Below the pieces are notes generated by a model. That model was not told the origin of the DNA. It was given only the letters and a program-made list of their open reading frames with translations, and made no database searches. Below are positions 41,712 through 46,739 of a stretch of 53,732 bases of DNA, in pieces (the stretch's first letter is position 1; every line of letters begins with the position of its first letter). The position numbers and the translations under genes were made by a program. The stretch lies in assembly GCA_028874175.1 (NCBI GenBank), contig JAPPLN010000063.1:1-53732 (forward strand), given 5' to 3'. This DNA is from Chloroflexota bacterium. Lineage in GTDB: Bacteria > Chloroflexota > UBA11872.

Positions 41712-42140
41712 CTAGCAGGTGGGTTGGTATTCGGTGGGGGTGAAGATGCCGGCGGTGAGTTGGAGGTGGCGGACGTAGCAGATGATCTGGTTGACCTGGG
41801 TTTCGGAGACGCCGGGGACGGGGAGCATGTTGCCGAATTGCCAGTGGTGCTGGCGGACGCCGCGGAGCACGGCGAGGTGAAAGGCGGCGTCGCCGTGGTG
41901 GCCGGGGTGGTAGATGCGGTCGATGAGGGTGGGGCCGAGGTTGGTGCCGGTGGCTTCAGGGCCGTGGCATTGGGCGCAGTGGGCGTTGAAGACGGTTTCG
42001 CCCTCACTGGCGGCTGCGTTTAGCTCGGCTGGGGCGGCGGCGGGCTGGGGGGCTGTGTCGTGAGCCTGGTGGGGTGCCCGGGATTCGCCGCAGGCGATTA
42101 GGGCGACGAAAAGAACAAAGAAAAGTGGGAGGGACGCCAT
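41712..42140 (-). CDS. Lipoprotein cytochrome c
   Basis: A 142-residue class I c-type cytochrome. Signal LPLFFVLFVALIAC is a lipobox with Cys17 as lipidation site; a ~30-residue Ala/Pro-rich linker follows. The heme motif is CAQCH (residues 55-59) in GETVFNAHCAQCHGPEATG, and the sixth ligand is probably the Met of FGNMLPVPG. GPTLIDRIYHPGHHGDAAF is the usual loop between them. A membrane-tethered electron carrier on the outside of the cytoplasmic membrane is expected. ATG at 42140 with GGGAGGGA upstream; an open frame continues upstream without homology. It lies 93 bases downstream of a Gfo/Idh gene. Confidence 0.92.
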   Translation of the reverse strand: MASLPLFFVLFVALIACGESRAPHQAHDTAPQPAAAPAELNAAASEGETVFNAHCAQCHGPEATGTNLGPTLIDRIYHPGHHGDAAFHLAVLRGVRQHHWQFGNMLPVPGVSETQVNQIICYVRHLQLTAGIFTPTEYQPTC

Positions 42141-42233
42141 GGTGGTGGGATGGCGCCCCTCCCGAGATGCCCTGGCCGGGGGAGCGCAGGGCGCCTTCCG
42201 GGGCGTCGGAAGGCAACTGGATGTCATGTGAGG

Positions 42234-43298
42234 TTACATGTCGACGATGGGCATGGTAACGCGGACGTTGCCGCCAGCGGAGGATTGGAGGGCGCCGAGC
42301 AGGATTTCCATGACCTGGCGGGCTTCGATGGGTCCGCAGGTGGGGGTTCCGCCGTTGTTGATGAGGCTAATGAGCTCGACGACGGCGCCGGCGATGTGGC
42401 CCTGGGTGTACTGGGTATGCGGAATGTCGGAGGTGACGAGGGTGCGGGATTCGTTGACGGTGGTGAGGGTGGCCCGCTCCTGATTGACGCGCAGGATGCC
42501 GTCGCTGCCGAAGACGTCGACATCAAACACGCCGGGCATGGGCTTGCACATGTTCCAGAAGGCGCGGACATCGTTGTCGTACTCGATTAGGATGCTGACG
42601 GCGGGGTCGGTGTCGGGGTCGTGGCCGCCGTCGCTGGCGTAGCGTGGGCCGTAGTCCTCGAAGTTGATCTCGTTGACGGCGTAGACGGCGGTGGGGTTGC
42701 CCTGGGCGTACCAGTTGATGGTGTCGCACATGTGGGTGCCGTTGCGGAAGAGCATGGCGCGGGGGCCGCCCTGGTTGGCGACGACGCGCTTGACGTCGCC
42801 GATGGCGCCTTGCTCGATGAGCTGGGCGGCCTGGACCCAGGGGAACATCCAGCGGCGGGAGTGGTCGACGAGGAAGGGGATGCCGGCCTTGGTGACGGCA
42901 TCGATGATGCGGTCGGCGTCGGCGAGGGAGGAGGCGATGGGCTTCTCACAGAGGATGCCCTTGACGCCGGCTTCGGCGCCGTCGATGCAGATCTGGGCGT
43001 GGACGTTGTCGCCGGTGACGACGCTGAGGATGTCGAGGTTTTCCTTTTCGAGCATCTCGACGTGGCTGGTGTAGGTGTTGACCTCGGGGAGGGCTTCGTT
43101 CCAGTCGGCGTTGAAGTTGGCGATGGCACCTTCGTCAAGGTCGCAGACGGCGACGACTTCGGTGTCGGCGACATGGTGGTAGGCGGCCACATGGGAGTGG
43201 GGCATGGCCGTGCCCCAGCCGGGTTCCGCTCCGACGGCGGCCGGCCGCTGGCCGATTCCGGTAAGTCCCACAACGCCGGCGCGCATTTGATCGCTCAT
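42234..43298 (-). CDS. Gfo/Idh/MocA-family oxidoreductase
   Basis: A 354-residue NAD(P)-dependent sugar/inositol-type dehydrogenase. The Rossmann start is MRAGVVGLTGIGQ; the EKP motif is GILCEKPIASSLADAD, and VDHSRRWMFPWVQAAQLIEQG leads into the C-terminal alpha/beta domain (GTHMCDTINWYAQG, with the active-site His/Asp region). The substrate is not predictable. The ATG at 43298 has GGAGG six bases upstream, which decides the start. A second, clearly related Gfo/Idh gene lies at 44.8 kb on the other strand. Confidence 0.9.
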   Translation of the reverse strand: MSDQMRAGVVGLTGIGQRPAAVGAEPGWGTAMPHSHVAAYHHVADTEVVAVCDLDEGAIANFNADWNEALPEVNTYTSHVEMLEKENLDILSVVTGDNVHAQICIDGAEAGVKGILCEKPIASSLADADRIIDAVTKAGIPFLVDHSRRWMFPWVQAAQLIEQGAIGDVKRVVANQGGPRAMLFRNGTHMCDTINWYAQGNPTAVYAVNEINFEDYGPRYASDGGHDPDTDPAVSILIEYDNDVRAFWNMCKPMPGVFDVDVFGSDGILRVNQERATLTTVNESRTLVTSDIPHTQYTQGHIAGAVVELISLINNGGTPTCGPIEARQVMEILLGALQSSAGGNVRVTMPIVDM

Positions 43299-43350
43299 GA
43301 GTGCCTCCGTGGCAACCCGCACGCCGGGCCGAGCCGGCGGCTGGGAACTG

Positions 43351-43378
43351 ATTGTACGGCGCGGGGGACGGGGGCGAA
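43351..43378 (-). promoter_or_regulatory. Candidate promoter for the Gfo/Idh-cytochrome unit
   Basis: On the minus strand TTCGCC (43378-43373) and TACAAT (43356-43351) are separated by 16 bases, about 53 bases upstream of the ATG. The -10 matches 5 of 6 consensus bases; the -35 is weak. Confidence 0.35.
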
Positions 43379-43444
43379 GCCAAGAAGACTGCTCACCGGG
43401 GCGTTTCGCCTTGAGTGACATTTGCGCAACCCCAGGAATGGTTG

Positions 43445-43544
43445 CCCCGAAGACCCCTCACCGATTTCCGGCGAAGACGCCGGAATCCTTCGGCAAGCTC
43501 AGGACAGGTTCTGCCTCTCCCCCTGGAGAGGGTAAAGAGCCGCC
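43445..43544 (-). repeat. Dispersed REP-like repeat, inverted copy
   Basis: Read on the minus strand: GGCTCTTTACCCTCTCC, GGGGGAGAGGCAGAACC, TGTCCTGAGCTTGCCGAAGG, then GAAATCGGTGAGGGGTCTTC. It shares ends with the plus-oriented copies to the left, with a variant centre containing CCTGAGCTTGCCGAA also found in the 46.7-kb copy. Confidence 0.75.
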
Positions 43545-43629: not shown

Positions 43630-44685
43630 CTAGAGGGCTTTGAGGGCCTGGACGATGGCGTTGGCGGTTACGAGGTCGTGGATGCCGGAGTAGATCTGCT
43701 TCCAGCGGACGATGCCGTTGGTGTCGATGACGAAGGCGGAGCCGGTGGCCAGGTTGTCACCGTAGAGATTCCAGACTTCGTAGGCCTTGGGAACTTCGGT
43801 GGAGAGGTCGTAGGCGACCTTGAAGGGGACGCCGAGGCTGTCGATGGCCCACTTGGCTCCTTCGAGGTTATCGGTGCTGACGGCGACGACTTCAGCGTTC
43901 TGCGCAGCGATCTGCTCGTAGTTGTTTTGCAACTCCACGAGTTGCGTGCGACAGGTCCCTCACCAGAAGGCGCGGTAGAAGACGAGGACGACGTTTTTTT
44001 GGCCCTGGAAGCCGGCGAGGCTGACTTCGCCGCCCGTGGCGCTGGGGAGAGTGAAGAGCGGAGCCACGGGGCCAGCGGCGACCTGGGGCGCGGGCGCCTG
44101 GGTGGCGGCAGGCGGGGCCTGGGTGGGCGCGGGAGTGGGGGCGGCCGTTGCCGGCGCAGCGGTGGCCTGGGGCGCCGCGGTTGTGGGGGCCGGCGTGGCC
44201 GTGGCAGGGGCCTGCGTGGCGGGAGGTTGGGTGGCTGGAGCCTGCGTGGCCGGCGGTTGGGTGGCCGGTGCCTGGGTTGCCGGGGCTTGCGTCACCGGCG
44301 GCTGCGTGGCCGGTGGCTGGATCGCGGCGGGGGCCTGGGTGGCGGCGGGAGCTTGCGTCGCCGGAGGTTGCGTAGCGGCAGGCGGCTGGGTTGCCGGCGC
44401 CTGGGGGGCGGCCGGTTGCCGGGTGGCAGCCGGTGGCTGGGTTGCGGGGGCGGTCGGCTGAGCGGGCGCCGCGGCCACGACGGTTGCAGCAGGAGCAGCA
44501 GCTTGCGGCGGAGGCGCGGCCGTTGCCGGCGCGGCCGGAGGGGCGGCGACGGCCGGCGGGGGCGGGGCCGGTTCGGGATCCTCGCCGCAAGCAGCCAAGC
44601 CGACCGCCATCAAACCCGCAACCGCGGCAGCGGCAAACCAGCGGAGCCGTCCGGGTCTCTGCCTGAGAGTTTTCGTTATCTGCAT
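43630..44685 (-). CDS. Candidate selenocysteine-containing peroxiredoxin-like lipoprotein (UGA read through)
   Basis: 351 residues if the in-frame TGA at 43962-43960 is read as Sec. Layout: signal with lipobox GLAAC (Cys33), a ~160-residue Pro/Ala/Thr/Gln linker, then an AhpC/TSA thioredoxin fold from APLFTLPSATGGEV. The active site reads NVVLVFYRAFW-U-GTCRTQL, where relatives have FYRGxWCxxC; Sec242 thus replaces the first Cys of a CxxC pair with Cys245. The fold continues in the same frame (VVAVSTDNLEGAK, ATGSAFVIDTNG) to 43630. No other stop interrupts it. A hairpin follows the UGA. Likely an envelope-anchored thiol/peroxide redox enzyme. The alternative, a nonsense mutation of a Cys codon, is less likely given position and hairpin. 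No selA/B/C genes are in the window. Confidence 0.82.
43929..43945 (-). promoter_or_regulatory. Candidate bacterial SECIS hairpin
   Basis: On the mRNA strand GCAACTC-GTG-GAGTTGC makes a perfect 7-bp stem with a GUG loop. The loop G lies 21 bases after the UGA, within the 16-37-base spacing used for bacterial SECIS, and the loop begins GU as in known elements. It is inside the coding sequence just 3' of the UGA, as required for SelB-dependent decoding. Confidence 0.65.
44080..44460 (-). repeat. Low-complexity Pro-Ala-Thr-Gln linker-coding repeats
   Basis: Degenerate tandem units of about 15-18 bases coding ATQAP, ATQPP and PPATQ. They give a long flexible, probably extended tether between the lipid anchor and the redoxin domain. 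Such linkers are common in Chloroflexota lipoproteins and prone to slippage length changes. Confidence 0.85.
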
Positions 44686-46660: not shown

Positions 46661-46739
46661 TGCCCGGAAGACCCCTCACCGGATTCGGCAAGCTCAGGAC
46701 GGGCTCTGCCTCTCCCCTCGGAGAGGGTGAAGAGCCGCC
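46661..46739 (-). repeat. Dispersed REP-like repeat, inverted copy
   Basis: On the minus strand: GGCTCTTCACCCTCTCC, GAGGGGAGAGGCAGAGCCCG, TCCTGAGCTTGCCGAATCCG, GTGAGGGGTCTTCCGGGCA. It has the same orientation as the 43.4-kb copy and the opposite one to all copies left of 41 kb. Confidence 0.78.

Follow-up and report, generated by a model that had tools for sequence, protein, structure and literature searches.

A candidate selenocysteine-containing lipoprotein redoxin in uncultured Chloroflexota

Introduction

The active site of peroxiredoxins is defined by the motif PxxxT/SxxC, and that of thioredoxin, TlpA and ResA proteins by a CxxC-type motif with a cis-Pro opposite. Lipoproteins follow a pattern of their own, a hydrophobic stretch and then a lipobox ending in Cys. 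Selenocysteine (Sec, U) is described in redoxins of two kinds. Sec peroxiredoxins carry TxxU in the available parts of PMC1088965 and PMC13188914, and Prx-like thiol:disulfide oxidoreductase selenoproteins, with a PF00578 domain and a UxxC or UxxU motif, are reported in the accessible text of PMC13188914, PMC9312934 and PMC1088965. The bacterial SECIS (bSECIS) model, as given in the accessible part of PMC13188914, allows 4-16 bp for the stem and 3-9 nt for the loop, and requires a G in the first two loop positions, a spacing of 16-37 nt and a minimum free energy (MFE) <= -7.5 kcal/mol.

Here the analysis concerns a redoxin gene with one in-frame TGA in the window, i.e. the whole stretch of 53,732 nucleotides of Chloroflexota DNA that was analyzed. 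As judged from sequence, the best explanation overall is that it encodes a Sec-containing lipoprotein redoxin, to which we assign a probability of about 0.85.

Results

Gene structure and conservation of the in-frame TGA

The gene lies on the minus strand, which the first-pass annotation of this DNA had left unstated, and comprises the following features.

43630..44685, minus strand: candidate selenoprotein gene, 351 residues, ATG at 44685 and TAG at 43630-43632
44587..44685, minus strand: lipoprotein-type signal, a hydrophobic stretch and the lipobox LAAC, with Cys33 as predicted lipidation site (lipobox pattern)
44065..44586, minus strand: linker of 174 residues, 93% Pro/Ala/Thr/Gln/Ser (composition count)
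43633..44064, minus strand: AhpC-TSA/redoxin domain (PF00578, PF08534; confident predicted model with mean pLDDT 88.6 and pTM 0.86)
43960..43962, minus strand: in-frame TGA, putative Sec242 (counted from the ATG) at the first UxxC position, kept in 23/23 close copies and invariant as column 44 of alignment A1
43951..43953, minus strand: Cys245, second UxxC residue, invariant in 24/24 sequences

The TGA has the context FYRAFW-U-GTC and is the sole in-frame stop ahead of the TAG. It had been claimed that both halves of a redoxin domain share one frame and are split by this codon alone; in agreement, a single Pfam AhpC-TSA domain spans the TGA with 97.1 bits (E 9.5e-28, cut-off 26). The motif around the TGA, as well as VVAVSTDNLEGAK and SAFVIDTNG within the redoxin domain, were all found as previously described, and the Pro/Ala/Thr-type linker was confirmed in composition but proved longer than the approximately 160 residues given for it. 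Under the standard code, the locus yields two open reading frames, one of 248 aa ending at the TGA and one of 102 aa behind it, so that routine annotation does split the gene, as anticipated, and an apparently surface-located redox enzyme that is conserved in uncultured Chloroflexota is therefore easily overlooked.

The domain was searched for in the source genome and 60 relatives, giving 35 matches in total. Within the same genus, 11 of 13 genomes were positive; in ten of them the copy covers the site and has one TGA, and the remaining copy, in G008, sits on a contig starting behind the site. G009 and G012, of the same genus, have selB without a copy, perhaps through incomplete assembly. All six genomes of the sister genus have two or three close tandem copies (13 in total), with one TGA each. 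Because the identical single TGA is present in 23/23 site-spanning copies of these two genera, from 16 genomes, it is not a chance event. Each of these copies has 109 codons after the TGA and a TAG or TAA stop. No other stop or frameshift was seen in the domain of any of the 23, in line with the claim that the gene has no further lesion; such lesions in sister genomes had been named as evidence that would count against a selenoprotein. Alignment A1 (24 sequences) shows no variation at the Sec or at the second Cys. The rest of the 35 matches are six further copies at 34-35% identity (five from the sister genus and one from G021), with one TGA each, and five other redoxins at 31-36% identity that have no TGA and other motifs. 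Eight close named records, from Chloroflexi/Chloroflexota metagenome-assembled genomes, appear to coincide with contigs already counted among these loci, their lengths being equal, and are not extra evidence. Judging by record labels like COS2 and RHO1, which point to sponge hosts, these Chloroflexota may be sponge-associated; the available part of PMC8163846 mentions Coscinoderma and Rhopaloeides without the bins COS2 and RHO1.

Enzyme class

Among solved structures, 157 distinct sequences matched the domain profile (E <= 0.001). Peroxiredoxins of the type of Rv2238c, which we take to be AhpE, occupy the first seven places of the list, and ResA occurs further down. In the alignment with Rv2238c, the second Cys of the window protein falls on the Cys of TxxC, the Sec on the Thr and an Arg on the Pro; the motif is therefore RxxxUxxC as against PxxxTxxC, and the defining peroxiredoxin signature is lacking. 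A two-spacer motif comparable to the CxxC of the thioredoxin-like proteins is present as UxxC, and by hand alignment Gly117 of the domain occupies the presumed cis-Pro place, where several cousins have Pro. None of the NCBIfam models reached its cut-off with the window protein. The best match was to the SelL-related redox protein model NF040769, with a score of 51.4 bits where the cut-off is 120 and thus outside that family as defined, and the same model matched 24/24 members of A1 at E <= 0.001. The protein does combine a PF00578 domain with UxxC, by which Prx-like UxxC selenoproteins can be recognized. Its place in this known class, as a subfamily below the NCBIfam cut-offs, is well supported at the sequence level, and it is most likely an extracytoplasmic selenol oxidoreductase.

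Concerning the reaction, disulfide exchange and peroxide reduction have about equal odds. The AhpC-TSA domain, and the fact that the best structure matches are peroxiredoxins with the Rv2238c group at their head, would suit a protein that functions as a peroxiredoxin-like peroxidase rather than as a disulfide oxidoreductase, whereas the replacement of PxxxTxxC by RxxxUxxC, the TxxU of the Sec peroxiredoxins cited above and the occurrence of ResA among the matches argue in the opposite direction. We place the peroxidase just on the wrong side of an even chance.

Lipid anchor and linker

A lipobox following a hydrophobic stretch was found in 21/21 copies with a complete 5' end, the other 3 of the 24 copies being cut by contig ends. 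This upholds, at the level of the motif, the lipid anchor proposed in the first-pass annotation, and the window protein is very probably a surface-exposed lipoprotein by the same motif. The linker spans 42 to 246 residues in 20 copies from the same family, with 74-93% Pro/Ala/Thr/Gln/Ser except in L029, where the 42 residues contain 38%. In one sister-genus copy (L043), the linker holds a DxDGDG-type stretch that corresponds to the Pfam Excalibur (calcium-binding) domain, and a similar stretch is present in the linker of L044, also from the sister genus.

Since the part ahead of the TGA is by itself a complete lipoprotein with a long linker, and since premature stops occur at Sec codons when selenium is low, the UGA could act mainly as a switch, leaving only a lipidated linker piece of 241 residues with a role of its own in the absence of selenium and making the redox form a minor product. 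However, it is the linker that is least conserved among the 20 copies and the domain on either side of the TGA that is conserved, and we consider such a switch improbable.

As a feature of a Sec-containing redoxin, a lipid anchor followed by a linker on a UxxC domain would be an unusual cell-surface architecture. At the level of titles and abstract openings, the open-access literature gave no lipid-anchored bacterial selenoprotein of such a type, and the word "lipoprotein" was absent from the available parts of the two reviews consulted for selenoproteins.

Wider family and Cys homologues

The family profile found matches in 20 of 41 genomes of the class (E <= 1e-22) and in 33 of 400 genomes of the phylum (E <= 1e-26). 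Outside the order of the source genome, 15 genomes had a match, with 16 matches altogether, of which 12 contain one TGA and four contain none. The four TGA-free homologues (L089, L090, L091 and L095) read FYRxxxCGxC, i.e. Cys replaces Sec. A comparison of homologues for Cys or UGA at the site had been proposed, and it gave Cys in 4/4 stop-free sequences outside the order and TGA in 23/23 close copies. Eight of the 12 TGA-bearing sequences were inspected, seven of which have the TGA in the motif followed by xxC. In the eighth, L094, the TGA is at the same place and is followed by xxD, with Asp for the second Cys, and a Cys lies two residues before the TGA. A selB above the cut-off was present in 14 of the 15 genomes, including all 11 that bear a TGA; the only one without is G271, a Cys genome, and the other three Cys genomes have selB. 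The phylogenetic tree has long branches and several weak or open forks, and was used solely for three groupings: the 23 close copies cluster together, L030 lies inside the sister genus, and the Cys forms are placed among TGA-bearing forms, where several forks are weak.

Candidate SECIS hairpin

A hairpin was predicted downstream of the TGA.

43929..43945, minus strand: candidate bacterial SECIS hairpin, 7-bp stem with loop GUG (fold plus published criteria)

The stem begins fourteen nt behind the UGA, with a UGA-to-loop spacing of 21 nt, and the energy is -7.7 kcal/mol for the stem alone and about -10 kcal/mol for 42-48 nt. These values (loop of 3 nt, GUG, 7 bp, 21 nt) fall within the bSECIS limits given in the accessible part of PMC13188914. 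On its own the hairpin is weak evidence: 144 of 2261 ordinary codon positions in seven ORFs (6.4%) pass our own version of the SECIS test, the fold in the window gene does no better than its shuffles (z -0.05 to -0.69), and among 24 homologues, nine have a stem that by itself does not reach -7.5 kcal/mol and five have a different lowest-energy fold. The comparison across homologues is stronger. The search covered 36 loci and gave 35 sites (L094 being missed by the motif), from which the alignment A2 of 31 rows was made; L059, L088, L096 and L097 were left out because their peptide differs at the stem. In the 28 distinct rows of A2, 94% of cells pair, as compared to 17-50% when the partners are slid. 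The number of both-side-changed cells and the covariation score exceeded all 500 shuffles, while two others of the five measures, the count of pairs changed on both sides and that of pair types, did not rise above them. Where the third base of a Gln codon faces the first base of a Leu codon, 18 rows have G-C, seven have A-U, one has G-U and two are unpaired. Since the exchange of G-C for A-U leaves the peptide unchanged, this covariation is synonymous, and L030 has the A-U form within a G-C clade of the tree. In the Cys homologue L089, the identical peptide QLVELQ is specified by codons that do not fold into such a hairpin (a single case); the other three Cys forms have different peptides at the stem position. 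Paired synonymous changes in the stem, set against a stemless Cys homologue with the same peptide, thereby offer a natural test of selection on the SECIS, in one case. Leu is encoded by CTC at 1/49 positions in selA versus 117/221 in the redoxin domains, and the invariant CTC of the stem is no more than suggestive as a SECIS signal.

Decoding machinery and other selenium redoxins of the genome

The assembly of the source genome (121 contigs, 92% complete) contains selA (514 bits), selB (343 bits) and selD (376 bits) by profile search, and a tRNA-Sec (71 bits by model) with anticodon tca by ARAGORN. The tRNA-Sec model gave 13 matches in the genome, two of them above the cut-off; the second of these (L005) is made a tRNA-Ser by ARAGORN. 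The selD gene (L017) has one in-frame TGA itself, at about 1534, whose context reads G-A-G-U-A-C-K by eye, presumably the usual active-site position of SelD. Absence of selABCD had been put forward as the main ground for rejecting a selenoprotein; with selA, selB, selD and tRNA-Sec all in the assembly, the Sec machinery is complete and this ground therefore fails. A selB above the cut-off was also found in 19/19 genomes of the same family. Given that the codon persists in close relatives and that the means of decoding it are encoded in the genome, the UGA at 43960-43962 is almost certainly read as Sec. Support for the selenoprotein proposed in the first-pass annotation comes from the TGA in all 23 close copies, the Cys in all four stop-free homologues, the machinery and the covarying hairpin.

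An in-frame TGA occurs in 7 of the 14 AhpC-TSA matches of the genome, window gene included. The six others (L102, L103, L104, L108, L109 and L111) have one TGA each at redox motifs, as read from sequence only, in the contexts FLRHTWULSC, FLRHTWUPNC, FYRGHWUSHC, TPGUMAE (at two contig ends) and FCUINC. L108 and L109 appear to be opposite ends of a single Sec peroxiredoxin gene cut by contig boundaries. With an in-frame TGA in 6 of the 13 other AhpC-TSA matches, and in selD as well, selenium redoxins seem to be numerous in this genome. Elsewhere it encodes a DsbD/CcdA-type protein (39.5 bits), whose gene adjoins that of the thioredoxin-like L107 (C20, CINC). L107 has a Pro/Ala/Thr-rich stretch of its own after a hydrophobic N-terminus.

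So high a share of TGA-containing redoxins would also arise if UGA were read as an ordinary amino acid, e.g. Trp, but the TGAs are at redox positions and neither random nor at Trp sites, the frames L102 and L106 end in TGA at the expected length, the stop-free homologues carry Cys at the site and the genome has tRNA-Sec, selA, selB and selD, which leaves such a recoding next to no probability.

The domain behind the TGA had been described as fully conserved, and its 109 codons are indeed intact in 23/23 copies. Over this part, the NG86 dN/dS of 15 chosen, non-independent pairs was 0.03-0.30 in 12 and 0.57 in two, and the last pair was saturated. For eight of the pairs, pS exceeded pN in 2/8 and 0/8 in the two other frames. 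On these values, the codons after the TGA are mostly under purifying selection. That the gene is an ordinary Cys redoxin decayed to a pseudogene, or interrupted by a nonsense mutation or an assembly error, as its splitting under the standard code might suggest, is refuted by the conservation of a single TGA in the 23 close copies, with the intact codons and mostly purifying selection behind it, and its probability is likewise negligible.

Neighbourhood of the locus

Two genes follow the candidate selenoprotein gene on the same strand.

42234..43421, minus strand: Gfo/Idh/MocA oxidoreductase, downstream neighbour, whose true start may lie inside the frame
41712..42227, minus strand: c-type cytochrome with a lipoprotein-like start, following the Gfo/Idh/MocA gene

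Of 17 related loci compared, 8 have the Gfo/Idh/MocA gene downstream in the same orientation and 4 have the c-type cytochrome; some of the 17 are too short to show either neighbour. A 21-base sequence has intergenic copies at 43488-43508 and 46683-46703, with 0 and 2 mismatches where chance would give no copies, perhaps as part of an interspersed repeat. No Rfam family was detected in the window at the gathering threshold, nor any tRNA by ARAGORN. Redoxin matches in plasmid (34) and phage (6) records were all <60% identical, and none of 13 pattern-matching stretches in viral contigs codes for a relative.

Discussion

The following mechanism may be envisaged for the Sec-containing lipoprotein redoxin. 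SelB with Sec-tRNA would decode the UGA, aided by the hairpin, and the protein would be exported and lipidated at Cys33, with the flexible linker keeping the redox domain off the membrane at the outer face. Sec242 would then attack an oxidised substrate, either a disulfide or a peroxide, Cys245 would resolve it as a selenenylsulfide, and an extracytoplasmic thiol donor would re-reduce the enzyme, possibly the DsbD/CcdA-type protein encoded beside L107. More tentatively, and with the odds somewhat against us, we propose that the whole lineage deploys extracytoplasmic Sec redoxins on adjustable tethers, by way of a lipid anchor, linkers of 42-246 residues and the tandems of the sister genus, with an active site that is neither that of a peroxiredoxin, Sec standing in for the Thr, nor that of a thioredoxin, Gly taking the presumed cis-Pro place, and hence possibly with a distinct selenol chemistry at the cell surface. 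The genome is well suited to asking why selenium serves outside the cytoplasm and what role tethers of varied length play.

Compared to known systems, the window protein is closest to the Prx-like UxxC selenoproteins as described in the accessible text of the papers cited, with which it has in common the Pfam domain, the UxxC and a Sec/Cys exchange at the first position; it adds to these the lipoprotein signal and the long linker, has Gly instead of Pro before the motif-facing strand (hand alignment), and reaches the cut-off of no NCBIfam model. The SelL-related proteins of NF040769 are the nearest NCBIfam group, from which it differs in its score below the cut-off, its UxxC and its one TGA only. 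It shares with Rv2238c-type peroxiredoxins the fold family, by sequence, and the second Cys (that of TxxC), but these have Thr and Pro where the window protein has Sec and Arg. The ResA/TlpA-type reductases resemble it in a redox motif of two residues with two spacers and in a predicted extracytoplasmic location, and ResA is among its matches; the window protein departs from them in that Sec replaces the first Cys, its best family is PF00578 and, by hand alignment, it appears to lack a cis-Pro. Finally, the four Cys homologues from other Chloroflexota have the domain in common with it, with FYRxxxCGxC as their motif; unlike in the window protein, their domain is fused behind another TlpA-like domain, L089 carries a SurA-like N-terminal domain as well, and none of the four has a hairpin that passes the SECIS test, in contrast to the window gene.
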